The translations under genes and the position numbers were made by a program. Shown here in pieces: positions 18,076 to 50,102 of a stretch of DNA of 64,000 nucleotides (the stretch's first letter is position 1; every line of letters starts with the position of its first letter). The notes below the pieces were generated by a model that ran no database searches, was not told where the DNA came from, and was given only the letters and a program-made list of their open reading frames with translations. The DNA is from Inonotus obliquus (taxonomy: Eukaryota; Basidiomycota; Agaricomycetes; Hymenochaetales; Hymenochaetaceae): positions 3,720,001-3,784,000 of the forward strand of contig JAJHTX010000002.1 in assembly GCA_032164295.1 (NCBI GenBank), in the 5' to 3' direction.

Positions 18076-18080
18076 ACGGG
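18076..18080. repeat. Target-site duplication of element A (left)
   Basis: ACGGG immediately before the 5' LTR; the same five bases occur at 29350-29354 after the 3' LTR. Confidence 0.93.
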
Positions 18081-18123
18081 TGTTAGAAAGGTAGTATTAT
18101 CCATCATTAATAAGCCAATAACT

Positions 18124-18885
18124 ATGAGCGTCCTACGTTGGATACAAGAGCGGTTAGCGGCAGTAATACAAGTACTAGAACAGCCTATCGTTCCACCGAC
18201 ACCGCGAAGCAATATACTACGATGTTGCAACACGTGCCGCCCAGCTAAAGAACTAGCTGGAGGGCTAATGCGAGAATTAATCAGAGAGATCACGTACGGG
18301 GACATAATGAACGGACAAGCCGATATAATGATACGACGTCGATTTGTAGAACTAACCTACGACCCTAACCAACAAATACAAAAAGCTTATGAAAGGGAGA
18401 TACGAGTATTATCCTACGACGCCAGACACTTTGTAATGATGGTCGGAATACGAAACGTAGCACAGGAAGGAAGACACGAACAATGCGACGCAGCTATAGT
18501 AGATGTCGACATTGCCTACAAGCGAGACCAAGCCGGAACGAATGAGAGAACTGCATATGCTTGGGGGCATTGGATAATGAATTACATAAGTCGAGGATTA
18601 CCTTATGGATATACCATAATGGAAATAAAGGTAGAACAGTACGGCGGAGTAATACACCTACAAGGAGTACAAGGGGTAAACCTACAACGTGCCAGGACAA
18701 CGCTAGGATATACACGAGTGCAAACTATTCGAAACTGGCTGACTGTACCACGACCGATACCAACGAGACCCGAAATACAAGGACAGATGACTCAGCAATT
18801 ACCTAGAATAGCTGAATTAGATCAAGTGCCGTTACCTATACAAGAATCAAACCTATCTGCGAGATGGTACCGCCCACTGCACTAA
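18124..18885 (+). CDS. U3-encoded CxxC protein of element A (5' copy)
   Basis: 253 residues from the ATG at 18124, wholly inside the LTR and upstream of its TATA box. The 5' copy is therefore not in the element's own transcript; the twin in the 3' LTR is. Visible: a Cys cluster CCNTC at about residues 33-37, a helical LMRELIREIT segment, HFVMMVGIRN near 102-111, and a basic, aromatic C terminus. No signal peptide or membrane helix. I do not recognise the family. Its length, coding composition and a related frame in LTR B argue that it is a real gene of this LTR group. Confidence 0.6.
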   Translation: MSVLRWIQERLAAVIQVLEQPIVPPTPRSNILRCCNTCRPAKELAGGLMRELIREITYGDIMNGQADIMIRRRFVELTYDPNQQIQKAYEREIRVLSYDARHFVMMVGIRNVAQEGRHEQCDAAIVDVDIAYKRDQAGTNERTAYAWGHWIMNYISRGLPYGYTIMEIKVEQYGGVIHLQGVQGVNLQRARTTLGYTRVQTIRNWLTVPRPIPTRPEIQGQMTQQLPRIAELDQVPLPIQESNLSARWYRPLH

Positions 18886-19032
18886 ACTAATCAAAGAGAG
18901 GCTAGTAATACAGAGGTAGTGAAATAAGGAAGGAAGTAAAGAGAAAGCACGGACCAGGTATCATGGAGGAAGAAACAGATAAATACCATAAACAGTAAGT
19001 AACAAGGTAGTAACGTCACACATGTAAATTAG

Positions 19033-19076
19033 TATATAAGGAGGCCATCGTAGAGCCGACCTAGCAGTTTAATCCA
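19033..19076 (+). promoter_or_regulatory. TATA box and predicted RNA start of element A
   Basis: TATATAA at 19033-19039; 33 nt after its first base begins AGTTTAATCCA (19066-19076), the exact complement of the primer-binding site at 19538-19548. This places the likely RNA 5' end at 19066. Confidence 0.7.
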
Positions 19077-19537
19077 AGTCAAGGGACCCTACCATAAGTC
19101 CCTAAGTTAAATCGTAACATCAATTACTTGCGAGCCAGTAAATTACCAGTAGCGACACGGCTGAACTGAACCGATTGTGTGAAATCGAAGTAAAGCTAAA
19201 AATACGGATTGCAACTAGATTGTTCTCCCTATTGTCTGCACGGTACGAGCTACTCACAACGTAGTGCGATTCCCGATATTCCCTTATCGTGAATACCAAT
19301 CAGTATAACAATCGCGTATTCCCGCCGACTTAATACTGTACGATTATAGTATCAGGTTCAACTGCAATATTAGTTAGTTGCTAGTTGTTTCAGATCGGAT
19401 CAGCTACACAGTCCACTAAGGTGATTAGCAATTCCATAACCAGTATTGTAGAATTTGGATTAACCCCTCAAACCGAGGAATTAGCCAGATTGGTCCGTCG
19501 ATCAAGAATCAACGAACCCTCCACGGAGATAAACATC

Positions 19538-19548
19538 TGGATTAAACT
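19538..19548 (+). other. Primer-binding site of element A (self-priming type)
   Basis: TGGATTAAACT, two bases after the 5' LTR. It pairs over exactly 11 nt with the predicted 5' end of the RNA (19066-19076) and not beyond on either side. This is the arrangement known from Tf1 of fission yeast, where the RNA's own first 11 nt prime reverse transcription. Confidence 0.7.
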
Positions 19549-19637
19549 CCCTTCTTGGCAAGCTTAAAGGAACAAGCGCAGACTATTGCCAATAAAGGTA
19601 ATTGTGATAGCACGAACTAGTCATTCAAATAGACTGA

Positions 19638-20027
19638 TTGAATAATTCCCTTATCCAATCAGTAGGCCACCTGGAACGGCAAATAGACATCAGTAACAAC
19701 CACCGAAACCTAGAACCACAGGTCGGGTTAACATTGGAGCGTGCAAAACAAACGCAGGAACGAGAACAAGGAGCGCCGAAAGATATAGACGCGTGGAAGC
19801 TAATAGCGAGGCAACCAATTTGGCAAGATCTCTACTGGGATCATTTCAAGACAGGAAGGGTTATAGGCAAAGTGTCACCTACACCGCACGAGAGTGTATT
19901 TAAGAAAGCACTAGAAAACGGAGGAGGAACGTTGTACTCCGCGCAAGCACACGCCAACCTATTACACCGAATACTACTAGCCCTACTCAACGGAAAGAAA
20001 GAGAAAGCAAAAGCAAGTAAAGTATAA
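19638..20027 (+). CDS. Leader ORF 1 of element A, no ATG
   Basis: An open frame of 129 codons between a TGA (19635) and a TAA (20025), with no methionine codon. The product would be hydrophilic, Gln/Glu-rich and basic at its end (GKKEKAKASKV). No domain recognised. Translation would need a near-cognate start or splicing. It is in the same frame as leader ORF 2, separated from it by two TAA codons, so the two could once have been one gene. Whether it is translated is unknown. Confidence 0.4.
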   Translation: MNNSLIQSVGHLERQIDISNNHRNLEPQVGLTLERAKQTQEREQGAPKDIDAWKLIARQPIWQDLYWDHFKTGRVIGKVSPTPHESVFKKALENGGGTLYSAQAHANLLHRILLALLNGKKEKAKASKV

Positions 20028-20048
20028 GCGCAAAAACCGAATACATAA

Positions 20049-21653
20049 TTAAATATAACTATAGTGGCTTACGAAGGAATATACGCGGGGCTGGTTACAG
20101 TATTCATATTTGGTACGATCTACTATAGGACAGCGATCGCAAGTGCGCTCAGACGAGGAACAAGACTACTTCAATACCTGTCTATTTACGAACCCTACGC
20201 AACGCAGTGGGGGATATATCACTACTCAACTGCCATTGGAACGCAAGTGGACCGATTGGCCGGAAGGATCGAACTAATCCTCAACACACAGGCTGAAAAG
20301 GATCAAGCGTTGGGAGTGTACCTAGACCATCAGTTCAATCAACATATCGAGAAACATAGCCGCTGGCACAGGAGTAACGACGAGGCACACCATATCACCA
20401 GAACGTTAGTAAGGTACAACCAGACAGAGCTAGGCATCCTCCGGACTATAACGAGAGAAGTACAACACACCTTCGAGACGCTACAGCGAAGACAAGAAGA
20501 GCACATAGAGCGGTGGACTGCCCGAGAACACCGAGACGCTGAATTTCAGCGCGAATTATTAGATAAAGTAAGCCGCATCGAGACAAACTTCCTACGCCTA
20601 AGGAATCAAGTGTCGGATATCAGAGTCGCACTCGCCGCGTGGGAAGGAGAAGAAAGACAGCGAGAGGAAGCGGAAATCCAACAAGACTGGAACACCGTCG
20701 GATCGTTATTAGGAGACGATCAAGATCAACCAACGCCGGAACTAACTCAGTCCGAAGCCAGTTGGGAATCACCGAACGAATCGGAGCAGAACGGAGGAGA
20801 GTGGGGAACAGGGAGCCGTTGGGCAAATTCAGAGCCAAACGGGTTTAGGGACTTCAACGGAGACGAAAGTTACAGGCACCCAGACTCGCCAATTCCCACT
20901 ATTTCAGACGAGGAACCGGAAGAAGGAGAGATACAATTACACGTAGTCGACTTCAGGGCCCAGAACGAAAGTGAGAACCTAACTACCATCACGGAAGAAG
21001 AAGAAGGCATTAACCAAGAAAGTAGTACCTCCGGGATTACATTTGATAACGGGAGAAGACTACCAAGCGGCATTAACGTTACTCGAGATCAGGCAGGGAA
21101 CGTCCGCATAGACCTGCGAGGATTGGCTAGGTTAAACATAAACGAGATAGTCGAGGAAGTAATTACAGAGCTACAAGAAGAACTAAAACCGACAAACGAA
21201 CAAATCCCAACAATAACCATTAGTCGCAAATATCATCGAAAAGCAGATCAGGACAGAATAGCTAAAGGAATCATAGGTCGAATCCGAGAACAAAGGGAAG
21301 CAAACAATAGGAAAGAAGAAACCAGAGAAGTCCAAACCGAACGAGAACAGGGGATCATTGAAGAGGTAGAAACGAGAGGAAGGTTGGTATTGTATTATTC
21401 CCCAGGATCCACGACCAGTGGCAATTCAGAAGAATTCTCCAGCCCATTCAGCAACGTTAGTCAAGCCCACAGTAGCAATACCACAGAAGACGAATACCTA
21501 GAAGACAATTATCGAAGGCATTTAGCGTTACTAGAATTCGACCCGGCAGAACTCGAAATCTCGGAACAAGAACTGAGAGACCGATTGACTTGGGATTCAA
21601 GCGAAGATGACGAGCCTACAAATGAGTATGTCGCAGAAACCACCGAAGTTTAG
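20049..21653 (+). CDS. Leader ORF 2 of element A: Met-free membrane/coiled-coil protein
   Basis: 534 open codons without a single ATG. A GTG at 20064 in a good context (A at -3, G at +4) is the best candidate start, giving 529 residues. Near the N terminus is a hydrophobic segment IYAGLVTVFIFGTIYY (about residues 6-21), then a helical, probably coiled-coil region (about 60-200; ARE, LRN and EEERQREEAE-like heptads), then a long acidic Ser/Glu/Asn-rich tail. The last 47 nt overlap gag in a different frame. Not related to any gag, protease or envelope protein that I recognise. Such a long open frame is hard to explain without translation. Confidence 0.5.
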   Translation, partial: LNITIVAYEGIYAGLVTVFIFGTIYYRTAIASALRRGTRLLQYLSIYEPYATQWGIYHYSTAIGTQVDRLAGRIELILNTQAEKDQALGVYLDHQFNQHIEKHSRWHRSNDEAHHITRTLVRYNQTELGILRTITREVQHTFETLQRRQEEHIERWTAREHRDAEFQRELLDKVSRIETNFLRLRNQVSDIRVALAAWEGEERQREEAEIQQDWNTVGSLLGDDQDQPTPELTQSEASWESPNESEQNGGEWGTGSRWANSEPNGFRDFNGDESYRHPDSPIPTISDEEPEEGEIQLHVVDFRAQNESENLTTITEEEEGINQESSTSGITFDNGRRLPSGINVTRDQAGNVRIDLRGLARLNINEIVEEVITELQEELKPTNEQIPTITISRKYHRKADQDRIAKGIIGRIREQREANNRKEETREVQTEREQGIIEEVETRGRLVLYYSPGSTTSGNSEEFSSPFSNVSQAHSSNTTEDEYLEDNYRRHLALLEFDPAELEISEQELRDRLTWDSSEDDEPTNEYVAETTEV

Positions 21654-22545
21654 AGGAAGAGATAAGGAGAACGTGGATGTATTTATAAATAAAATGATTA
21701 GTAATTTTGCATGGATGGATGCGCAAAATCAGAGCAACAAACAAGCGGCACTAACAGATAGTAACAAAGCCTACATCATGTGCCAATGCATGGAAGAGAA
21801 GGCTGCCACGTGGGTAAGCACAGCGTTAAAAACAAATCCGCTAGATATGATAGGAAAAGGGCAAGTATGGGAAACGTTTGAAGAATTCTTAACCTACATA
21901 AGGAGCAACCACAAACAATACTATGACCCTGTAGAAGACGCAACGAATAAATTAGTAAATATTGTACAAGAAGGCTCCATATTGCAGTACAATAGTGATT
22001 TCGGAAAGATAGTATCAGAATTAGATAAGGCAGTATGGCCGGATAAGGCACTTACAGTATTATACAGAAGAGGGATGAAAGATTATATTTATGCGCAGTT
22101 AGCAGGACAAACGGAAAGCGCGAAATGGACACTAGCAAACTGGATGAGCCGAGCAGTAGCACTAGAAGGCGCAAGATATGGCGCCAAGGCAAGGACTAAG
22201 ACCTTCACGAGCAACTGGGAAAAACCCCAGAGGAGAAAAGACGATGTAGTCCCAATGGACGTAGACGTACGAAAATTCAGAAAGAGGACTAATAAAGGAA
22301 AACCCAGGTACCGGAGTAACCAAAAACCGAAGAATACGACGGGTTGTTACAGATGTGGTAAACCAGGTCACATTGCCAGAGAATGCAGAGTGAAACCACG
22401 AGAAGGAAAACCTCCGAGTAGACCGGGCTATCAAAAATTCAAGAGAAGATTGATAGGAGAAGAATCGGAATATGAAGGCTCCAACGAGGCTAGCGATAAT
22501 GAGAAAGAAAGAGAACCTAAAGAGGATTTTCAAGAAAGCGACTGA
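21607..22545 (+). CDS. gag: Gag of element A
   Basis: 312 residues. The ATG at 21607 is the first ATG after the predicted RNA start. A helical retrotransposon-gag domain (about 30-200; AATWVSTALK, WETFEEFLTYIRSNHK) is followed by a basic linker and one CCHC zinc knuckle CYRCGKPGHIAREC (about 247-260), then an acidic tail. It packages the genomic RNA into the particle. Ends at TGA 22543; the downstream pol frame is -1 relative to gag. Confidence 0.88.
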   Translation: MTSLQMSMSQKPPKFRGRDKENVDVFINKMISNFAWMDAQNQSNKQAALTDSNKAYIMCQCMEEKAATWVSTALKTNPLDMIGKGQVWETFEEFLTYIRSNHKQYYDPVEDATNKLVNIVQEGSILQYNSDFGKIVSELDKAVWPDKALTVLYRRGMKDYIYAQLAGQTESAKWTLANWMSRAVALEGARYGAKARTKTFTSNWEKPQRRKDDVVPMDVDVRKFRKRTNKGKPRYRSNQKPKNTTGCYRCGKPGHIARECRVKPREGKPPSRPGYQKFKRRLIGEESEYEGSNEASDNEKEREPKEDFQESD

Positions 22546-25500
22546 TCGAATCGGCTGATCAGCGCGCAAGGAAAGGGACCATAACGAAACCAGAAGGAAG
22601 ATGGTCGCGGGTAAAAGCGAAATGGAAACGCCGATGGACGACCCCGGTAAAACCAAATACCGATCATCCAAAACTGAGGATATACCTCAGTCAGGGGGGA
22701 AAGAGAAACCTGCCAATAACAGCAATGATCGACTCAGGATCAGTATTAACAACGATTAGTCCTAATACCGTCAAACGATATGGACTAGATACAATAAAGA
22801 AACAGAATCCTGCCCAAATTAGAAATGCAGATGGAACGCTAACGAATAACGGGTGGAAGGAAAGCGTTAGAGCATGGGTGGATACCGGAGCATCAAAGGG
22901 AAATATGGAACTCGCAGTAGTAGAAACTACAGGAGACAAATTTTTATTAGGAAATGATTGGATAGCTAACTATAAGCCAGTCATAAACTGGGAAACGGGT
23001 AAGGTAACAACTAGATTTGGGGAAGCCAAATTGTTAGGAACTCGGAATATGATAACGATGGAAAGAATGGCTCGATATCAACAGAAAAGAAGAAGAAAAT
23101 CCCGTAGAATTAGATCTCCACTGCGAAGAGACTCCGAAGAAGGGTCCGAATCCGAAGGAGACACGGGATTAACAATAAGGTGGAATACCATGGGAAAGGC
23201 AAGCTTAGGGAATCTACCGACACCACCACCAAGGTCCGTACAAACCGCGGTGATTGTGGTGCCTCCAGAAGGAATACGGCCAACCACACTAACGCCTAAG
23301 GACGTCACAGTATTGCCAGCACCAGTAATGCAGTATAGGGAGTCGCAAGAAGGAATCGAATCCGACCCAGAGGAAGTCGAAGAAATAGAAGAAACTACGG
23401 AAGAAAGGGACGAATTCCAAGAACAAATCTTGAGAAACTTTGGGAAATTAGCTGAAGAACTGCAAAGACTAGAGGAAACAAATCTCGAAGACCCGCCGAG
23501 ATCACCAGAAAGAACGGAAATAGCACTCCCAAGCATAGAACAAATAATATCCGGGGAAACACCGAGTAAGAGATTACCACCGCAACCACCGCCAAAGATG
23601 CACCAAGTAGGGCAAGGCGGAAGTAGAATAACTAGAGAGAGGAAAACGAGTTACCAAAAGGCCCGGGAAAACAAAACTAAACCAGAAGAAGTGGTATACG
23701 ACCGAAACATGAGAATAACTGTACAAGTAAACGATCAAGAACCCCAAAACCGAGATTATAGCCGAAACAGCAGGATGAAAAGGGAAAGGACCGAGCAGGA
23801 AACAACCGCAATTAAGAAATTAAATAAGTATAGCAGTATGGCACAAAAGTACTCCCAAGAAAAAGCAAGGGAACAAGGACGATCACAAATAGGAACGACT
23901 AAGCATTGGAAATCCTTGGTGCCTAAGGAGCTATGGGATTTCGGGGAGATATTTAGCGAGAACAATTCAAAACGACTACCGAAGCACAATCAATGGGATA
24001 TGAAAATAGTGTTTAAAGAAGGACAGGAACCAACAGCGAAACGAACCATTTATCCGCTAACGCCACTGGAACAAAAAGCAGTGGAAGAATTCATAGAAGA
24101 CAATTTGGCAAAAGGATGGATCAGGAGATCCACTTCAAAGTACGCAATGCCGGTATTCTTCGTCGGAAAGAAGGATGCAGGGGCAAGAATGGTAATAGAT
24201 TACCGACCAGTAAATGCAGTTTGTGAAGTAGATCAATACCCGATACCCATTATGCACACGCTACCCGACAATTTGGGAAAGGCCAAATGGTTCACCACGC
24301 TAGACCTTCGGTCAGGATACAATAATATACGAATCCAAGAAGGAGACGAACATAAAGCCGCATTCCGAACACATAAAGGAGTATTTGAACCATTAGTAAT
24401 GCAATTCGGAATGATGAATTCGCCAGCAGTCTTTCAACGAGCTATGAACGAACTATTTGGAGACATGTTGAACCATGGAGTGATGATTTATCTAGATGAC
24501 ATCATTATCTATGCTGAAACAAAGGAAGAACTGTTACAAAAAACGAGGAAGGTACTAGCTCGGATACGAAGAGCAGACTTCTATCTGAAACCGGAAAAAT
24601 GCTTCTTTAACAAGCAAGAATTAGACTACCTGGGATTCATAGTAAACAAGGACGGATTGAAAATGGACCCGTACAAACTCAAAGCAATAGAAGAATGGCC
24701 AGTACCGCAAAACAAACGGGATATAAAGAAATTTACAGGATTTTGTAATTTCTATAGGAAATTCGTCAAGGACTATGCAGCAATAGCAAGGCCGATGAAG
24801 AAACTAGAATCCAAGAAACAAGCCTTTGTATGGGGAGAAGAGCAACAAAGGTCGTTTGAAGCCCTGAAAAAAGCCGTAATCACAGGACCAATATTAAGAA
24901 GACCAGACTATGACAAAGCCTTCGTAGTAGAAACCGATGCGTCAGACTATGGCATGGGAGCAGTATTATCACAAGAACACGAAGGAAAACTACATCCTAT
25001 TGCCTATCTCACGAGATCCTTTACAACAACTGAAAGGAACTGGCCAGTATCCGAAAAGGAGCTGTACGCAATTGTGATCGCCCTAACTACTTGGAGACAC
25101 CATTTAGAAGGAGCGAAACATACTATTTTAGTACTATGCGACGCGTTGAACCTGAAGACCTTCATGAAAGCGCAACGAGTCGGACGAAAACAGGCCCGAT
25201 GGGTCACGGACGTACTAAGTAGATATCAATTTAAAATCGATTATCGACCAGGAAGCAAGAACACGAGGGCCGATGCGCTATCCAGGAGATCAGGATATGA
25301 CGAAGGAAAGAATGATAACAAGGACGTGATCGTATTACCGAGCGAAAGATTCGTCAACCCAAAAATATTTGATCGACAAGCTAGAAACAGCGTAAGCGAA
25401 GGAATGGTACCACCAAACGATAAATTAATACCCGGACAGGACCGAAAAAGAGATGTATTATATACCTTCCACGACTCACCAATGAGCGGACATCCAGGAA

Positions 25501-27086
25501 CAGACAAGACGATAGCGGCAATAGAAGAAATCTATTGGTGGCCGGATATGAAGGAAGAAATTAGGGAATACGTTGCCTCATGCCACATTTGTCAAAAGAA
25601 CAAACCTAGGAGGGGACGAACACAACCACCGCTGAAACCATTGGAAATACCAACGGGACCATGGAAACATATCACCATGGATTTCATTACAGGACTTCCA
25701 GAAAGTGAGGGCTATGATGCGGTACTAGTGGTAGTAGACCGGTTTTCAAAAATAGCAACGTTTATTCCCTGTACTAAAGAAACAGACAGTAAGAAAACAG
25801 CGAAGATGCTATTGGACCACGTATTCACGAAACACGGACTACCAGAAAGAATTACTAGCGACAGAGGCCCACAGTTTACAAGCAACTTTACACAAGAAGT
25901 ATATAAAGCCATGAACATTGACAATGCGCTTAGCACGGCACATCACCCACAAACAGATGGGCAAAGCGAAAGAGTAAACCAGGAACTAGAACAATACCTA
26001 AGGCATTACGTAAACACAGCGCAAGATAACTGGGCGCAGTACATCCACATGGCAGAGTTTGCTTATAATAATAGAGTACACGCAGCAATAAAGAAGTCAC
26101 CATTTGAACTCCTTTATGGAAGAAAATTGGAAATATTGCCCATGGGGCAGGCGAACGCACCAGACGCACAGGAATATATTAAAAAGGTATGGGAGATACA
26201 GAAACAAGCAGAACAAGCGCTGATGGCGTCAAATGAACAGATGAAGAGATACACCGATAAACATAGGAGGGCAGAATTAGAATTCAAGGTAGGAGATAAG
26301 GTAATGATAGATGCTAGAAACTACAATATAGTAGTACCCAGCCGAAAGATAGGGCCGAAGAATTTAGGACCATATAGAATAATCAAACAACATGGGCCAT
26401 TAAATTACGAACTAGAATTACCAAAGAAGATGCGCATACATCCAGTATTATATGCAGGTAATCTTATTAAATATCAAGATAGAATAGTAGATAACACCAC
26501 GGAAGACCAAGAAGTACCTTCGAATCCAGTCATTGTAGAGGATGACGAATACGAAGTAGAAAGGGTACTAAATTCAAGGAAAACAGGACGGAAATATTAC
26601 TTCTTAATAAATTGGAAGGGATACGGGGCAGAACACGATTCATGGGAGCCATTAGGGAACCTAGGAAACGCCACGGAAAAGATCGAGGAATACTATCAGA
26701 AACACCCACAAGCGGAGAAACCAAATTACATCGACGGATGGATTAGAAGGAATAACGAAAACGAAGAGAAAGGAAAACGAACAGCCAAGAGAAGGATGAT
26801 AAATACCAGGAACCCGATAAAAATAAAGGATTTCGCGTATGACGAAAATAACCCATTACACACCAATCCTAGTGGTTCATCGAGAACGGATAATCTAGAA
26901 GAAACATACCAGAGAGTCAAAAGTCCACTATCCAAGGAACAACATTGGGAGGAAGACGACGACAACATCAGGAGGAATCCTGATCATGCCATAAAAAGGG
27001 ATGAGAACGGAGGCCGCATCCGGCAAAGAAGTAGACGGTTAACGAAGCGAAAACCTACGGGTTCACACGAGGAACAGGGTATATAA
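22521..27086 (+). CDS. pol: Pol of element A (protease, RT, RNase H, integrase, chromodomain)
   Basis: Frame -1 to gag, opening right after a TAA at 22518, so it can be reached by a -1 frameshift within the last seven gag codons. The first pol ATG is at 22725, already inside the protease. Domains, counted from that ATG: aspartic protease (MIDSGS at 1-6, with the domain's start just upstream), reverse transcriptase (about 450-640; catalytic YLDD near 590), RNase H (VVETDASDYGMG near 735), integrase (HHCC finger ending CHICQ; D in MDFITGL, D in SDRGPQF, E in SERVNQELE) and a C-terminal chromodomain (EYEVERVLNS..NWKGYG..DSWEP, about 1273-1320), which in such elements steers integration toward marked chromatin. 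No stop or missing catalytic residue seen. Confidence 0.92.
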   Translation, partial: RGFSRKRLIESADQRARKGTITKPEGRWSRVKAKWKRRWTTPVKPNTDHPKLRIYLSQGGKRNLPITAMIDSGSVLTTISPNTVKRYGLDTIKKQNPAQIRNADGTLTNNGWKESVRAWVDTGASKGNMELAVVETTGDKFLLGNDWIANYKPVINWETGKVTTRFGEAKLLGTRNMITMERMARYQQKRRRKSRRIRSPLRRDSEEGSESEGDTGLTIRWNTMGKASLGNLPTPPPRSVQTAVIVVPPEGIRPTTLTPKDVTVLPAPVMQYRESQEGIESDPEEVEEIEETTEERDEFQEQILRNFGKLAEELQRLEETNLEDPPRSPERTEIALPSIEQIISGETPSKRLPPQPPPKMHQVGQGGSRITRERKTSYQKARENKTKPEEVVYDRNMRITVQVNDQEPQNRDYSRNSRMKRERTEQETTAIKKLNKYSSMAQKYSQEKAREQGRSQIGTTKHWKSLVPKELWDFGEIFSENNSKRLPKHNQWDMKIVFKEGQEPTAKRTIYPLTPLEQKAVEEFIEDNLAKGWIRRSTSKYAMPVFFVGKKDAGARMVIDYRPVNAVCEVDQYPIPIMHTLPDNLGKAKWFTTLDLRSGYNNIRIQEGDEHKAAFRTHKGVFEPLVMQFGMMNSPAVFQRAMNELFGDMLNHGVMIYLDDIIIYAETKEELLQKTRKVLARIRRADFYLKPEKCFFNKQELDYLGFIVNKDGLKMDPYKLKAIEEWPVPQNKRDIKKFTGFCNFYRKFVKDYAAIARPMKKLESKKQAFVWGEEQQRSFEALKKAVITGPILRRPDYDKAFVVETDASDYGMGAVLSQEHEGKLHPIAYLTRSFTTTERNWPVSEKELYAIVIALTTWRHHLEGAKHTILVLCDALNLKTFMKAQRVGRKQARWVTDVLSRYQFKIDYRPGSKNTRADALSRRSGYDEGKNDNKDVIVLPSERFVNPKIFDRQARNSVSEGMVPPNDKLIPGQDRKRDVLYTFHDSPMSGHPGTDKTIAAIEEIYWWPDMKEEIREYVASCHICQKNKPRRGRTQPPLKPLEIPTGPWKHITMDFITGLPESEGYDAVLVVVDRFSKIATFIPCTKETDSKKTAKMLLDHVFTKHGLPERITSDRGPQFTSNFTQEVYKAMNIDNALSTAHHPQTDGQSERVNQELEQYLRHYVNTAQDNWAQYIHMAEFAYNNRVHAAIKKSPFELLYGRKLEILPMGQANAPDAQEYIKKVWEIQKQAEQALMASNEQMKRYTDKHRRAELEFKVGDKVMIDARNYNIVVPSRKIGPKNLGPYRIIKQHGPLNYELELPKKMRIHPVLYAGNLIKYQDRIVDNTTEDQEVPSNPVIVEDDEYEVERVLNSRKTGRKYYFLINWKGYGAEHDSWEPLGNLGNATEKIEEYYQKHPQAEKPNYIDGWIRRNNENEEKGKRTAKRRMINTRNPIKIKDFAYDENNPLHTNPSGSSRTDNLEETYQRVKSPLSKEQHWEEDDDNIRRNPDHAIKRDENGGRIRQRSRRLTKRKPTGSHEEQGI

Positions 27087-27180
27087 AGAAAAGAGTCGCC
27101 GACGAGATACCAGTATCCTTATCAATTCCTTTCACCACCGCCATCAAAACCCTAAACACGAATACCAACGCCGAACAGAA

Positions 27181-27808
27181 ATGTCGAAAACCGTAGAACT
27201 CGTACTCGCGATAGTAGCATTTGGATTGGTAATCATGATGAGTCTGATAATACAATGGAGACTGCAATTTTGGATATGGAGACAGGTGCGCAGTCATTAC
27301 AATAGAGAGGTAGCAACCGTTAACCAGCTATCAGGAATTAAATCACCCGCCTGAAGAAGGCGTAGACCAAAACCCGATAGCGTTCGCGCACGGAAATGAA
27401 GATGAAGATGAAGATGAAGATGAAGATGAAGATGACGATTACATCCCGATGCCGTTCATCCCCTGGCCAGCCGAGCAACAAATGGCGCAACAAGAAGAAC
27501 TATGGGCAAACGTAACAGCGCCCTCAAATGAAGATTGGGGAGACATCTCTACGTGGGGAGCAAGCTGGTCAGCAACGAACGACCCAGATCACGAAACGTT
27601 CTGGACGGACGACGAGTTTATTTGGGACAACTGGACGCCGGAACAATTAAACGAAATCTACGAGATAAGAAGGACCGCGAGAGAACAAATGAGAAACGAG
27701 TTAGTGAATCGAGCAGCGCTGGAGAGAGCGCTAGAAGAAGAACAGAACGCAGACGACGAAATATGGGTGGACATTCAGTTGTGGTCGTCAAATGTAGAGG
27801 AATTTTAG
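27181..27808 (+). CDS. Membrane-anchored acidic protein of element A (spliced model)
   Basis: Lies between pol and the 3' LTR. An ATG at 27181 opens a frame with a hydrophobic helix LVLAIVAFGLVIMMSLII (about residues 7-24) followed by WRLQFWIWRQ. Unspliced, it ends at TGA 27352 (57 residues). A 49-nt GT-AG intron, 27286-27334 (GTGCGC...CTATCAG, TAAC before the acceptor), would join it in frame to the acidic ORF ending at 27808, giving about 192 residues: one membrane segment, an Asp-Glu repeat run (encoded by repeats of GAAGAT at about 27397-27432) and a Trp/Glu-rich tail. Without splicing, the acidic part could start at ATG 27449 (119 residues). No family recognised. Confidence 0.5.
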
Positions 27809-27883
27809 CTCAAAATGGGCTTAAGAATTATGAATAAAGAATATGTGTCATGCATTCCTTATGATTATGTCAGATGCATTCCT

Positions 27884-27894
27884 AGAAGGGGGAG
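27884..27894 (+). other. Polypurine tract of element A
   Basis: AGAAGGGGGAG directly before the 3' LTR; the expected primer for plus-strand DNA. Confidence 0.85.
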
Positions 27895-29349
27895 TGTTAG
27901 AAAGGTAGTATTATCCATCATTAATAAGCCAATAACTATGAGCGTCCTACGTTGGATACAAGAGCGGTTAGCGGCAGTAATACAAGTACTAGAACAGCCT
28001 ATCGTTCCACCGACACCGCGAAGCAATATACTACGATGTTGCAACACGTGCCGCCCAGCTAAAGAACTAGCTGGAGGGCTAATGCGAGAATTAATCAGAG
28101 AGATCACGTACGGGGACATAATGAACGGACAAGCCGATATAATGATACGACGTCGATTTGTAGAACTAACCTACGACCCTAACCAACAAATACAAAAAGC
28201 TTATGAAAGGGAGATACGAGTATTATCCTACGACGCCAGACACTTTGTAATGATGGTCGGAATACGAAACGTAGCACAGGAAGGAAGACACGAACAATGC
28301 GACGCAGCTATAGTAGATGTCGACATTGCCTACAAGCGAGACCAAGCCGGAACGAATGAGAGAACTGCATATGCTTGGGGGCATTGGATAATGAATTACA
28401 TAAGTCGAGGATTACCTTATGGATATACCATAATGGAAATAAAGGTAGAACAGTACGGCGGAGTAATACACCTACAAGGAGTACAAGGGGTAAACCTACA
28501 ACGTGCCAGGACAACGCTAGGATATACACGAGTGCAAACTATTCGAAACTGGCTGACTGTACCACGACCGATACCAACGAGACCCGAAATACAAGGACAG
28601 ATGACTCAGCAATTACCTAGAATAGCTGAATTAGATCAAGTGCCGTTACCTATACAAGAATCAAACCTATCTGCGAGATGGTACCGCCCACTGCACTAAA
28701 CTAATCAAAGAGAGGCTAGTAATACAGAGGTAGTGAAATAAGGAAGGAAGTAAAGAGAAAGCACGGACCAGGTATCATGGAGGAAGAAACAGATAAATAC
28801 CATAAACAGTAAGTAACAAGGTAGTAACGTCACACATGTAAATTAGTATATAAGGAGGCCATCGTAGAGCCGACCTAGCAGTTTAATCCAAGTCAAGGGA
28901 CCCTACCATAAGTCCCTAAGTTAAATCGTAACATCAATTACTTGCGAGCCAGTAAATTACCAGTAGCGACACGGCTGAACTGAACCGATTGTGTGAAATC
29001 GAAGTAAAGCTAAAAATACGGATTGCAACTAGATTGTTCTCCCTATTGTCTGCACGGTACGAGCTACTCACAACGTAGTGCGATTCCCGATATTCCCTTA
29101 TCGTGAATACCAATCAGTATAACAATCGCGTATTCCCGCCGACTTAATACTGTACGATTATAGTATCAGGTTCAACTGCAATATTAGTTAGTTGCTAGTT
29201 GTTTCAGATCGGATCAGCTACACAGTCCACTAAGGTGATTAGCAATTCCATAACCAGTATTGTAGAATTTGGATTAACCCCTCAAACCGAGGAATTAGCC
29301 AGATTGGTCCGTCGATCAAGAATCAACGAACCCTCCACGGAGATAAACA
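27895..29349 (+). repeat. 3' LTR of element A
   Basis: 1455 bp, apparently identical to the 5' LTR; followed by the TSD copy ACGGG at 29350-29354. Confidence 0.93.
27938..28699 (+). CDS. U3-encoded CxxC protein of element A (3' copy)
   Basis: Same 253-residue ORF as at 18124-18885. This copy lies within the full-length transcript, downstream of pol, so it is the one the element's promoter could express, for example from a spliced RNA. Its own start codon is the first ATG in the LTR. Confidence 0.6.
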   Translation: MSVLRWIQERLAAVIQVLEQPIVPPTPRSNILRCCNTCRPAKELAGGLMRELIREITYGDIMNGQADIMIRRRFVELTYDPNQQIQKAYEREIRVLSYDARHFVMMVGIRNVAQEGRHEQCDAAIVDVDIAYKRDQAGTNERTAYAWGHWIMNYISRGLPYGYTIMEIKVEQYGGVIHLQGVQGVNLQRARTTLGYTRVQTIRNWLTVPRPIPTRPEIQGQMTQQLPRIAELDQVPLPIQESNLSARWYRPLH

Positions 29350-30220
29350 ACGGGAGGCAACGGGCATGTTGACATATCATGTGTCCAGCGAACGAGCAAC
29401 AGCTTATCGAGAATACCACAATCCCCCGGAGGTCGTTCGAAATCGCACGAGGTCAACAATAGCAATGGATACGGCAATAGGCATGCAACCAAAGACGCAC
29501 TGGACAATAGTAGGAATCCACGACATATTAGCACTCGAGTGCCCAAGCACATTCGTGGAGATCAGTGCAGACTATGTTACGAACCGCCGCTCACCAATAA
29601 CAGCGGCATGGGTTGCAAACACACTCAGGGAACTATGGGCATACTGCAAAGTTATTCGACTACAAGGAGACCTATACCTAGGCTGGAGAATACCTTCGAA
29701 CGATACTCGACGAAGTGTACGGCTACTCATCGCCATAGGCACATACGTTAAACCACCTTGGTTTCCCCACGATGATATCCGATGTCGAATCACACTTGAC
29801 GGCCCCGAACAAGAGTCCCGAGGCGACAAGCAAATCACAGCCTTCATAGCCCCAGATGCTATACAACGGAACCCCGACGGAATTCCTTAAATGCACGAGC
29901 AACTGCGGACGAGCGAACTTTAACTACGGCGCAGCCATGCAAAACCAATGGCATACGAACACGCATTCAATGACTCACTCACTGACTCACTCTATGCACA
30001 GGGCGCAGCACAAGACCGACCCCGAGCATAGGTTTCAATTCAGTTCAAGTCAAGATGAGTCAACGCCGAGTCATCGCCTTGCACAGGGCGCAGTCGATGA
30101 GTCAATCCGCAGAAGAACAATGGAATTACCAGACGAGTTAGGAAGCTAGAACAATGAATCAGATCGAGAGTAGGAACTACGGAGCGTAGGAAGTGGTCCG
30201 TCCACAACATGAGGAAAAGG

Positions 30221-38531: not shown

Positions 38532-41322
38532 TGTTCAAGTTCCTGGTTTACTCGCTCTGTCTGTCCATCCATCTGGGGGTGATATGCTGTCGACAGATTT
38601 CCTTGGATGCGTAGTAACTTGTACAATTCCTTCATCATTTTTGCCTCGAACTGAGTTCCCCGATCATGGATGATCTTCTGCGGTAGCCCATGAAGCCTGA
38701 AGACGTGATCTCGATAGATCTTCGCCATCCCTTCTGAGGTCAACTTTGTCGTTGTCGGAATCGCATGCATTTGTTTACTGAACCTATTCACTATGACGCA
38801 GATCGCATTGTGTCCGCTCGACTCCGGAAGTTCCCCAATCAGGTCTACTGTAACCACTTGCCAAGGTGCCTCGGGTATTTCATTTGGGTGTAAGACACGT
38901 CGTTTCGCCGTTCTGACTGCTTTCGTCCATTGGCACTTGTCGCATCCTCGTACGTAGCTTCTAACGTCTGTAAACATCGTTGGCCACCAGAAGTCACGTC
39001 TGACCAGTTCGACCGTCTTTGATGAACCCGGATGTCCTGCCCATGGTGAGTCATGACAAACCTGGAAGACCTTGTCTCGCATCTCATCCGGCACAAAGAT
39101 CCTTCCATCCTTCTGCAGCATTCCACCTTCCGTCGTTGCTCCTCTTGGCACTTCCTCCCTCGGCAGATCCTCCTGTGCTTCCTTAATCTTTTCCCTCAGA
39201 GTCGTCAGATTGCCAGTGGTAAGGGCCCGAACTAGCCATTCTTCTTTGATAAAGACGATGTCCTTGTTATCCTCCTTGCCTTCATCAAACCCTGCTCGCC
39301 GTGATAATAAATCAGCCTTTCCCATTGACATTCCTGGTTTGTGCACTAATACGAAGTCGAATTCGGCTAGCTCCGTTCTCCAACGTGCTTGGCGGTAATT
39401 GAGCTTGTGCGCCTCCTTAAAGTACATGAGATTCAGATGATCCGACCAGACTTCAAAGCGATGTTTAGCGCCCAAAAGGTACTGTTGCCAGTCTCGAAGT
39501 GCTTCAACAATTGCCAACATCTCTTTGTCATAGATCTCATAGTTCCGTTCTGCATCACTGAGTGCCGCCGATCGATACGCCACTGGTTTCCATTTGCCAT
39601 CCTCCTGTTGCTGTAGCAAGACTGCTCCTGTAGCGTAGTTTGATGAGTCGGCTTCCACTCGATAAGGTCGATCGTGACTTGGGATAGCAAGCACGGGTGG
39701 ACTACATAAATGCTCCTTTAATCCTTCGAATGCCTCCCGCTGTTCCCTTCCCCACTTCCACTCCACCTTGCCTGTCAATGACGTTAGGGGCTTGACGACT
39801 TGACTATAGTCCTTGATGAATCGTCGCAACCAGTTTCCGAAGCCTAAGACCCTTTGTAGCTTAGTAACATTCTTCGGCGCCGGCCAGTTCCTCACCGCTT
39901 CGCTTTTCTTCAGATCTACCTTGAGCTCTCCACACCCAATAATATGTCCTAGGTATTTGACTCGGTCGACCTCGAATTCGCATTTCTGTGGCTTAAGGAA
40001 CAAGCGATTATCACGAAGTCGTTTGAACACTTCCCGTACCAGCTGATGATGCTCGGCGTTGTTGGTGGAGAATATCAGAATGTCGTCAAGGTAAATGATG
40101 ATTCTTCCTTCGTGTATTAAGTCCCTGAAGATGTCGTTCATAAAGCCTTGAAACGTAGCTGGTGCATTGGTTAACCCAAAGAACATAACCGTAGGTTCGA
40201 ATAAGCCTAGGTTCATCCGAAAGGCAGCCTTCCACTCATCTCCTTCTCGAATACGTATGTTGTAGTACCCCCAATGTACATCTAGTTTGGTGAAGATCCT
40301 CACCTCCTTGACTTTATCGATTAATTCTTGAATGAGCGGGAGAGGGTATTTGTTTTTGACCGTTCCCTCGTTAAGCTTTCGATAATCTTGGATTGCACGG
40401 AGCGAGCCGTCTTCCTTTTTGATGAAGAAGAAGGGCGATGCCATTGGTGACTTTGATTCACAGATTCGTCCAGAGGCTAAGTTTTCTTCAATGAAATCCT
40501 TCAGTGCCGCTTGCTCCTTCGGGTTCAAAGGGTACACCTTGCAATCGTTAGGCTTAAAATCCGGCTTTAGATCTATTGCATGATCCCAAGGGCGATGTTC
40601 GGAAAGCTTTTCAAAGCTCTCTTCACTGAATACGTCCTCAAAATCATCGAGGTAAGTCGGCCAAGCTTGATCAGATGTGGTCATACGATTATGCACAACT
40701 GCAGTTGCCTCTGGGATTCGATTCTGCTGACAGCCAAGGGGGCAATGTGTAAACTCGATCTTCCCCGTAGTCCAATCTATCTCCGGATTGTGCTTTGTAA
40801 GCTAGTCATGTCCTAGGAAGACGTCGCAGTGAGCCAAGCAAGTAACGGCTAGGCGAATTGCTTCAGTGTGTTGTCCAAAAACCATTTCCAGCTCAACGTA
40901 GTGCGTCATCATCCCTCCTGTATTGAGAGTTCCGTCCGCATTGAAGACCATCATAGGACGTATGTACCTGGTCCTGGGAAGATCATGCTTGAGCACAAAT
41001 TCCTCATCGATACAGGAGCCGGTGCAACCCAAGTCGACTAGAGCTCGCGCTTTCTCTAAGAAGTCCCCCTCATATCTAGGCAGGCTGACCATGGATAAGA
41101 TCACCTCTATCTCCAATTGACGCCCATTTGATCCTCGTATAAATCGTGGGTGTGCCCGGAAGTAAGCTTCTTCAAAGACCTCCACTCCATCTTCTGTTAG
41201 ATCTTCTTCTGCTCTTGTTGGTATCACGTCGGTCAAGATTTCGTAGTAGGGTGCAGCATCATCGTGTTTCAAATCTCTAATGTAGTATACAGACGATGAG
41301 TCATGGAATACGCGCTAAAGAG
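38532..41322 (-). pseudogene. Element G: truncated gypsy pol
   Basis: Minus-strand pol with protease, RT (YLDD near 40092), RNase H (RVEADSSNYATGA) and the first part of the integrase (CHDSPWAGHPG...CDKCQ), cut off after QTERVNQELE where the LTR at 38531 begins; the last integrase part, any chromodomain and gag are missing. Two decay marks: the protease motif reads LVDLGCTGS instead of D-S/T-G, and one in-frame TAG (40802-40804) stands where the family has Trp (LGHD-stop-LTKHNPEIDW). A sister lineage of D/F, not the same element. Confidence 0.85.
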
Positions 41323-44478: not shown

Positions 44479-44885
44479 TGTTACGCCTTGCGCAGTCAGA
44501 GACGTCGATCACGAGATCAGAGACGTCGACGAGCAAGAAGACGAGCTACCACTTAATCACAAGAGACCGGAGTCTGCGACGTAGGTGATAGTACTAGATT
44601 TAGCACACCTATATAATATACAAAGAGAATACGACTTACCTGCGACGTAGGTGATAGTACTAGAACAAGAGAGTGAAGAGACGATCACTCTCGAGTCCAG
44701 CCTTATATACACAGACGTCGCGGGAAAGCTTTACATAAACTGTACAGTATAAACAAAGGTAAACAAAGAACGCTTTGTGCAAATTGCATTTTGCACAAAG
44801 CATATAAGTCACATGATGAGAAAAGGGAAAAATAAGAAAATGGGAAAATGGCCGTATGAGGAAAAAAGGAAAAGACATCGTAACA
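44479..44885 (-). repeat. 3' LTR of element F
   Basis: 407 bp. Contains the hairpin 44773-44802 (12-bp stem) and the putative intron 44576-44641. The polypurine tract lies next to it (C-run at 44889-44896 on the plus strand). Confidence 0.93.
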
Positions 44886-48496: not shown

Positions 48497-49567
48497 CTAC
48501 TGGCTGATCGAAAAATCCTCGTCGTCGGGATTACTTTCTTCGACGACTTCTTCTTCTTGTAAACGACGAGCCGCCGCTGCTCTTGCTGCTTCCACGTCTG
48601 CGTCCGCAAATAAAACCTCACGAAGCAGTTCCTTCGCCTGCTCGGATAATTCGGCGACGACCGCACGAACTTGTTGTTTGGTTGTCGGTGTCGGACAATT
48701 TGCAGAGATGTGGCCTTGTTTGCCACACTGGAAACACCTTCCTTCGCGACGTAGCCGTCGAAGGATGTCTTGCATCGGTTCGCCTTGACCCCCGAAGGTA
48801 ATTCCCGTTGCATCCTTTTTGTCGCCACGCGACGGATCGAACAGGGCCGGCTGTTGTGGTGCCGGTGGGTGGACTTGCCGACGCGGTAGTGGTTGTGTCG
48901 GTGCCTTCTGGTTACGCAGTTGACGAACTTCGCGCTCGTTCGCGTCAAACATGATGGCGTACCCCTTCATCGTGTCATAATTCGTCGGTTTTGTCGGGAG
49001 ATGAATGATCGCCGTTGCTACTTCTTCACGAAGAGCCTTCTTCAGCTGCGGAAGTACGACGTTGACGTCCGTCGTTTTGACTCCTGCTTGACTCATTGCG
49101 ATCTCGAAATTGGCGAGGAAAACACCGGCGTCGGCGTTTCCTTGGCGCATCTCTGTCCATCGAGTGTATGCTCGATCCTTCTCGCCGGGATCCTTAAAGG
49201 ATTGGTCGATCTTTTCAAGAAACCTCTTAAAGGTGTCGACGATTGTTATCGCACCCTGGTCATTCGTTATCCCGTCGTAGTAGTTTTGAGCCCATGTCGA
49301 CGCTGTGCCTTCCTTCATGTACGACAGCACGAAGGAGATCTTCTTCTTGTCGTTGACGAAGATCGAGCCAGTGTCGTCGGCGCTAATGTACGCCAAACAT
49401 TCTCGACGGAATCGGAGGTAGTCTTTGCCTCCAGCGAAAGGCGTCGGCGGTGCGATCCCAAGATCTTTCATCGTCGACGGTTTAGGCGCTTGTCTCTGTT
49501 GTGCAGACATCGCCGCCGCGACCAAAGCGGCGAAGTCCTGGATTTGTTCGGCGGTGAGGGACGACAT
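48497..49567 (-). CDS. gag: Gag of element F
   Basis: 356 residues; retrotransposon-gag domain and CCHC knuckle CFQCGKQGHISANC as in element D, with only scattered differences. Stop TAG at 48497-48499. Five codons before the stop lies GAT TTT, the likely zone for the -1 shift into pol. Confidence 0.93.
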   Translation of the reverse strand: MSSLTAEQIQDFAALVAAAMSAQQRQAPKPSTMKDLGIAPPTPFAGGKDYLRFRRECLAYISADDTGSIFVNDKKKISFVLSYMKEGTASTWAQNYYDGITNDQGAITIVDTFKRFLEKIDQSFKDPGEKDRAYTRWTEMRQGNADAGVFLANFEIAMSQAGVKTTDVNVVLPQLKKALREEVATAIIHLPTKPTNYDTMKGYAIMFDANEREVRQLRNQKAPTQPLPRRQVHPPAPQQPALFDPSRGDKKDATGITFGGQGEPMQDILRRLRREGRCFQCGKQGHISANCPTPTTKQQVRAVVAELSEQAKELLREVLFADADVEAARAAAARRLQEEEVVEESNPDDEDFSISQ

Positions 49568-49880: not shown

Positions 49881-50102
49881 TCAACGTCGACGGGTTAGAG
49901 GCGTCCACAACTCGTAGATGCGGACGGTCGGTACCCAGGTAATGAGCGCGCGATGGAAGTGACCGACGACCTCAAAGTAAGCTCCGACTTCGAAAGGAAC
50001 AAGATGATTGTTATCGTCGAGGTAATAACCGACGATCGCGTAGGTGGGGTAACACTCGAGAAACCCGATATACTCACGGAGGGAACGTGGTACACCGGAC
50101 AT
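49881..50102 (-). CDS. Conserved leader ORF of element F
   Basis: Counterpart of the 73-residue ORF at 31478-31699 in element D, differing by one residue (Asn for Asp in YYLDDN). Lies in the leader between PBS and gag. Function unknown. Confidence 0.45.
   Translation of the reverse strand: MSGVPRSLREYIGFLECYPTYAIVGYYLDDNNHLVPFEVGAYFEVVGHFHRALITWVPTVRIYELWTPLTRRR

Follow-up and report, generated by a model that had tools for sequence, protein, structure and literature searches.

Element A, a retrotransposon in a 64,000-nt window of the Inonotus obliquus genome (assembly GCA_032164295.1, contig JAJHTX010000002.1, positions 3,720,001 to 3,784,000; coordinates below are those of the window), carries a 2582-nt stretch before its gag gene that contains no ATG in any forward frame and includes two long open reading frames (ORFs) free of methionine (Met). 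We propose that its RNA is probably polycistronic, with non-AUG starts for the two upstream frames, ORFa and ORFb, and leaky scanning to gag. The evidence also leans, on balance, towards a fungal Ty3/gypsy group with an extreme form of caulimovirus-style polycistronic translation, in which two conserved genes (~130 and ~530 codons) would be expressed wholly from non-AUG codons and gag would have the first AUG, ~2.5 kb into the RNA. The features that carry this argument all lie on the forward strand. The omega-like ratio is that of changing to silent variants, divided by the expectation on the codons of the window copy, and relative B is a diverged relative in the same genome.

19033-19039, forward strand: TATA box (TATATAA); the last upstream ATG is at 19022, and the downstream core sequence is also found in relative B.
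19025-21606, forward strand: ATG-free region of 2582 nt, with 0 ATG in three frames by direct count.
19638-20024, forward strand: ORFa, 129 open codons without Met; omega-like ratio 0.32; no clear start codon.
20049-21650, forward strand: ORFb, 534 open codons without Met; omega-like ratio 0.27; an N-terminal hydrophobic segment, then a predicted long helix (low-confidence model).
20064-20066, forward strand: non-AUG candidate for the ORFb start, a GTG (A at -3, G at +4) within ATAGTGGCTTAC, a 12-mer common to relative B.
21607-22542, forward strand: gag, with the first AUG of the predicted RNA and A at -3; ORFb, read in a different frame, ends inside it.

ATGs occur at 19022 and 21607 with none between, a start-to-start gap of 2585 nt; the second-longest gap in the window is 878 nt. 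A sequence-only reading of this stretch had noted the absence, and a count across the interval found no ATG that would contradict it. Its figure of about 40 ATGs expected by chance, derived from a uniform 1/64 rate, was too high. The composition-matched shuffling that it had suggested, done here with dinucleotides preserved over 19025-21606, gave 24.1 ± 3.7 ATGs with a minimum of 13 in 2000 shuffles, and the observed zero is still far outside chance. The boundaries are sharp, as that reading had described them. The ATG-free run begins 8 nt before TATATAA, and ATG density is ordinary to ~10 nt before this motif and again from the gag start, as counts over 500 nt show: nine ATGs ahead of the TATA box and 17 from the gag ATG onward.

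The absence is confined to one strand and one triplet. CAT, the opposite-strand ATG, was found 31 times in 19025-21606, compared with 36.8 ± 4.9 expected. Within 19066-21606, A preceded TG in 0 of 70 cases versus 112 of 209 in gag-pol. Only AUG is avoided: CTG, GTG, TTG, ATT, ATC and ACG occurred in the zone at or above expectation and ATA only slightly below it (54 versus 62.8).

ORFa and ORFb together fill ~1.95 kb of the ATG-free interval. The genome (36.07 Mb, 30 contigs), from which all comparisons were drawn, contains 16 copies of ORFb at 97-100% identity (all 19 candidates scored). Our counts use the 14 uninterrupted copies, including that of the window; L025 and L026, in which the leader lies in two separated pieces, were excluded. 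ORFa was open in all 14 copies and ORFb in 13 (L023 has a TGA), and a Met appeared in ORFa or ORFb of a single copy, L019. Biallelic sites fell mostly on third codon positions, with 26, 13 and 67 at positions 1, 2 and 3 of ORFb and 4, 6 and 19 in ORFa. The omega-like ratios of ORFa (0.32) and ORFb (0.27) were similar to that of gag (0.37, or 0.27 over a slightly shorter stretch), whereas reading ORFa and ORFb in the wrong frames gave 1.5-3.4. Removing CpG sites left 0.25-0.29 in the right frames and 1.5-4.1 in the wrong ones. Judged by their variants, ORFa and ORFb evolve as protein-coding genes.

These ratios bear on the view that the interval is a leader that is not translated, that it lacks AUG solely to let scanning ribosomes arrive at gag and that its open frames are incidental. 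This view would be enough to explain why ATG is missing and why the gap begins at the TATA box and ends at the gag AUG. However, the contrast between right and wrong frames is not accounted for, nor is the fact that relative B keeps both ORFs without Met at 31-34% identity, and we regard such a leader as very unlikely. The sequence-only reading had invoked selection for scanning through the leader, and had made no mention of the two long open frames that occupy most of it. Selection against AUG is borne out by the shuffles, the relatives and the variants, and scanning to gag is still the simplest reason for it, but the interval is not a plain untranslated leader because two Met-less frames in it evolve as protein.

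We also shuffled synonymous codons with the protein held fixed. Shuffles of the 519 ORFb codons that precede the gag ATG contained a mean of 11.1 out-of-frame ATGs and never 0 in 5000, while those of ORFa contained a mean of 2.5 and reached 0 in 3.1%. In the controls, observed and expected ATG numbers agreed: 15 versus 14.0 in gag, 48 versus 48.8 in pol and 8 versus 8.3 in the ORF encoded in the U3 part of the long terminal repeat (LTR). Since omega-like ratios are low and the ORFb shuffles never reached 0, selection works at two levels: it preserves the protein and it removes AUG from all frames. Sequence comparisons give good support to selection against AUG in the RNA sense, over an interval that the TATA box and the gag AUG delimit. 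Like Met, cysteine is absent from ORFa and from ORFb as far as the gag ATG (19638-21606; 0 in 648 codons), which may follow from avoiding A-TG junctions; the ORFa counterpart in relative B does carry a few cysteines.

The sequence-only reading had pointed to other copies and diverged relatives as a further check. This held in part: nine of the 14 copies had no leader ATG and the relatives were depleted, but the remaining five copies carried exactly one each and the relatives one to eight. Each of the five ATGs was private to its copy and each was a CpG transition. Among private variants, 5 of 89 created an ATG versus 7.3 expected if neutral, while among variants shared by at least two copies it was 0 of 77 versus 4.3 expected (P = 0.014, a rough Poisson figure for variants of unpolarized direction). 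This pattern suggests that private ATGs fit decay after insertion and that shared variants have probably passed through transposition. The same outcome might be thought to come from biased mutation or from composition by chance, as the region is A-rich and 25 of the 89 private variants are CpG transitions. Yet CAT was normal, the shuffles never gave 0 and ATG numbers were ordinary in the U3 and gag of element A, which makes this origin barely credible.

The ATG-poor leader persists in diverged relatives within the genome. We read both listed copies of relative B, two of the 17 listed members of family C at 49-50% identity and one copy of family E. Relative B (copy C6) is 72% identical to element A in pol, 54% in gag, 33.5% in ORFb and 31% in ORFa; both ORFs are kept without Met, and 2 ATGs were found in 2631 nt versus 24.3 expected. 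The ORFb starts of A and B have ATAGTGGCTTAC in common, with a GUG there that has A at -3 and G at +4; this context is identical in all 14 copies of element A.

Family C has a reverse transcriptase (RT) 50% identical to that of element A, and its upstream ORF showed no sequence match to ORFb. Copy C8 had 2 ATGs in 1903 nt, where 15.8 were expected (1904-nt leader), and copy C3 (L068, C3:3684700-3686800, leader 165-1982) had one, at 1147, in 1817 nt. An ATG stands at the same spacing in both, 835 nt before the gag ATG; in C8 it has T at -3 and opens a 293-codon ORF overlapping gag. L067 was considered as a further family C copy and rejected: it is not a leader, its position having been extrapolated from a pol frame of another length.

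Family E (RT 43% identical) lies on the minus strand of the window at ~50900-44200, with a 1214-codon pol frame and identical 300-nt repeats at 44479 and 50472. Its leader contained one ATG in 1135 nt (9.0 expected in 1159 nt), at 50102, with T at -3, which opens a 73-codon ORF. In front of the gag ATG of family E, at 49567, the gag frame stays open for a further 109 codons without Met. A, B, C and E all have A at -3 of their gag AUG. To judge from its sequence, the AUG that recurs in the C leaders or stands alone in that of E is a weak start of an upstream ORF. A weak upstream AUG followed by a gag AUG in better context is what leaky scanning predicts. Two further elements were noticed beside these families: a 56%-identical relative at C12 with stops in RT, and a second minus-strand element in the window with its RT at 39284-40660.

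In the mechanism that we propose, the genomic RNA would begin a short way downstream of the TATA box (near 19066, the start predicted by the sequence-only reading) and carry ORFa, ORFb, gag and pol in that order. A minority of scanning ribosomes would start ORFa and ORFb at near-cognate codons, most likely the GUG at 20064, in its strong context, in the case of ORFb. Other ribosomes would continue for ~2.5 kb from the RNA start until they meet the first AUG, where gag begins, and a -1 frameshift after gag would give pol. An AUG that arose in the zone would capture ribosomes on their way to gag, so that selection would remove AUG in all three frames and leave both upstream proteins without Met.

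The junction between ORFb and gag allows other routes. In element A the ORFb stop comes 44 nt after the gag ATG, which is in a different frame, while in relative B it comes 23 nt before the gag AUG. This proximity would suit termination and reinitiation after ORFb, which, like an internal ribosome entry site (IRES), would bring ribosomes to gag other than by leaky scanning. In A and C, however, the gag AUG precedes the upstream stop, so forward scanning from the stop would miss it. There was no Rfam match at E ≤ 0.1 in 18081-22000 that could point to an IRES, and neither route accounts for the absence of AUG over the whole 2.5 kb; we hold both to be quite unlikely. The overlap of the two open frames (21589-21650) could also allow ORFb to be expressed as a frameshift fusion with gag. 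Such a shift would be +1 in A but -1 in B, an AUG with A at -3 already serves gag, and the loss of out-of-frame AUGs would be left unaccounted for, all of which makes a fusion exceedingly improbable. Ribosome shunting after a short AUG upstream ORF (uORF) was ruled out, there being no AUG in 19025-21606.

Splicing is the main open alternative, and an unlikely one. ORFa and ORFb would be coding, but gag or ORFb would come from a spliced RNA, in which an intron removes most of the zone or the junction creates the AUG of ORFb; an A|TG or AT|G junction would indeed supply ORFb with a start. If gag were made from spliced RNA only, however, there would be no reason for AUG avoidance over the whole zone. 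No intron-like deletion was seen among the listed matches (40 of 113 candidates scored), of which 14 span the zone, two span it as a pair of separated segments and all others are fragments of the LTR. The available part of PMC1142308, from 2005, states that introns 5' of gag had not been reported for LTR elements.

Several observations weigh against leaky scanning over a strictly AUG-free path. Among the five copies that carry a private ATG, L013 and L019 have an otherwise open pol frame, so the case that all such copies are dead is not made. At the shared variable sites 19318, 19320 and 21374, alleles are present that would complete an ATG in another combination; that combination occurs in no copy except as the private ATG of L019 at 21372-21374. 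The older copy of relative B (C13) has 8 leader ATGs, versus 27.5 expected, with two Met and a stop in its ORFb and stops in its ORFa and pol. One ATG is common to C6 and C13, at a CpG site also mutated in one copy of element A, and by parsimony the B ancestor would have had about one leader ATG. The second leader ATG of C8, which has T at -3 and opens an 11-codon uORF, is absent from C3, and the few copies read limit what B, C and E can say. ORFa lacks a conserved start codon, as A and B differ in frame just 5' of the conserved part. A search for ORFb homologues outside this genome gave none at E ≤ 0.01 among the best 7995 candidates scored per search of a protein collection. Finally, low leader structure as an aid to scanning was not supported: predicted structure was ordinary, with mean minimum free energies per 120 nt, uncorrected for composition, of -20.4 in ORFb, -19.4 from the primer-binding site to ORFa and -23.2 in R-U5 versus -18.0 in pol. 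In yeast, lengthening unstructured leaders of 50-500 nt has a modest effect and structure inhibits, according to the available text of PMC12415969; a 2.5-kb path exceeds that range.

In its N-terminal hydrophobic segment, ORFb has a Kyte-Doolittle value over 19 residues of 1.86 (element A) or 2.26 (relative B), and its structure model, which is poor (mean pLDDT, the predicted local distance difference test, 43.7; 45 of 534 residues at 70 or above), shows a long helix. ORFb could thus be a membrane-anchored coiled-coil accessory protein, with a role that is a guess. The U3 ORF, ORFa and ORFb had no Pfam match at E ≤ 1, NCBIfam gave one meaningless match only (E 0.46, ORFb of relative B) and a PDB sequence search with the ORFb alignment gave no match. 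A protein search with gag found two relatives, 55% and 39% identical, and a viral-contig scan with gag found no match.

The remaining parts of element A, which spans 18081-29349, are these.

18076-18080: left copy of the target-site duplication ACGGG; the right copy is at 29350-29354.
18081-19535, forward strand: 5' LTR, TG...CA, identical to the 3' LTR.
27895-29349, forward strand: 3' LTR, identical to the 5' LTR.
18112-18882, forward strand: U3-encoded ORF of 257 codons with an ATG start, inside the LTR; the second copy is at 27926-28696.
22521-27083, forward strand: pol open frame with protease, RT, RNase H, integrase and chromodomain, in the -1 frame relative to gag.

The first mismatch between the LTR copies falls at 19536/29350, just outside them. 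Because the LTRs are identical and the TG...CA ends and 5-bp duplication intact, the insertion is, by these signs, recent. Pfam searches identified a Ty3-type capsid (PF19259, 1.1e-09) and a CCHC zinc knuckle (PF00098, 7e-07) in gag, and in pol the order protease, RT, RNase H and integrase, then a chromodomain (PF00385, 5e-12). Element A is thus classed as a Ty3/gypsy LTR retrotransposon with a chromodomain (a chromovirus) in a fungal genome, an assignment drawn from LTRs, gag domains and pol order. Hydrophobin genes (14 matches, versus none in 14 control genomes) mark the genome as fungal. The U3 ORF has at least 125 genome matches, fragments included, a homologue in relative B that is 44% identical and an omega-like ratio of 0.36 over 18549-18882; its structure model is poor (mean pLDDT 39.9). 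Downstream of pol, a TATA-like TATATAAAG stands at 27080. Two open frames come after it, an ORF of 57 codons that includes a hydrophobic stretch (27181-27351) and an acidic frame (27314-27805), and then the U3 ORF in the 3' LTR. The region 27080-27805 possibly holds a second promoter for 3' accessory genes.

The closest known parallel is found in the Caulimoviridae. In Rice tungro bacilliform virus (RTBV), leaky scanning over 900 nt reaches the movement protein-coat protein-RT ORF, with an AUU as the first start and ORFs I and II without internal AUG (available part of PMC5902531). As far as that source goes, RTBV and the badnaviruses share with element A a succession of long ORFs that overlap slightly, a lack of internal AUG in the upstream ORFs and, as we infer for element A, a downstream ORF reached by leaky scanning. 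The upstream ORFs of element A are AUG-free in all frames (apart from the one private ATG in five of 14 copies) and, from their variant pattern and conservation, apparently protein-coding. A non-AUG first start, known in RTBV, is implied in element A by the absence of AUG, with the GUG as candidate for ORFb and none clear for ORFa. RTBV ORF II has an AUG in weaker context, which ORFb of A and B lacks, whereas the upstream ORFs of families C and E show a weak AUG. The path is 900 nt in RTBV versus ~2.5 kb in element A, and RTBV ribosomes, as described there, begin by shunting over a structured leader, after a short AUG uORF, whereas element A has no AUG before gag. Host, element class and proteins differ as well.

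Murine leukaemia virus makes glyco-Gag, a membrane-anchored accessory product, from a CUG start 5' of the gag AUG. That product is an in-frame extension of gag, while ORFb is a separate protein in a separate frame. Among plant Ty3/gypsy elements, Ogre belongs to the Tat lineage, without a chromodomain. Element A is fungal and has the chromodomain PF00385, and so falls outside plant Tat/Ogre. It shares with Ogre a long ORF between LTR and gag: in Ogre this has 550 codons and a function described as unknown, and the available part of PMC1142308 contains no statement that we met on AUG absence. Near-cognate starts are documented in a basidiomycete, Cryptococcus, where LeuRS uses ACG, ArgRS AUU and eIF5 an upstream CUG (available part of PMC7049704). 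Those starts make isoforms or uORFs of cellular genes, whereas ORFb is a 530-codon gene in an AUG-free zone.

We know of no AUG-free scanning path longer than ~2.5 kb, 900 nt being the longest that we met in print. A literature search whose reach excluded most subscription journals found no paper on an AUG-free gag leader or on non-AUG upstream genes in an LTR retrotransposon, and the words 'upstream', 'leader', 'additional ORF' and 'AUG' are absent from the main text of 'LTR Retrotransposons in Fungi' (PMC3248453). The mechanism is already known in pararetroviruses; what would be new here is its use in an LTR retrotransposon and its length. Element A provides a natural experiment on the distance that scanning ribosomes can cover and on the initiation of a 530-codon gene without AUG. 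Families A, B, C and E form, within one genome, a graded series from no AUG to one weak AUG for measuring the trade-off between upstream gene and gag. Since gene finders that require an ATG would miss ORFa and ORFb, retrotransposon genes 5' of gag may be overlooked.

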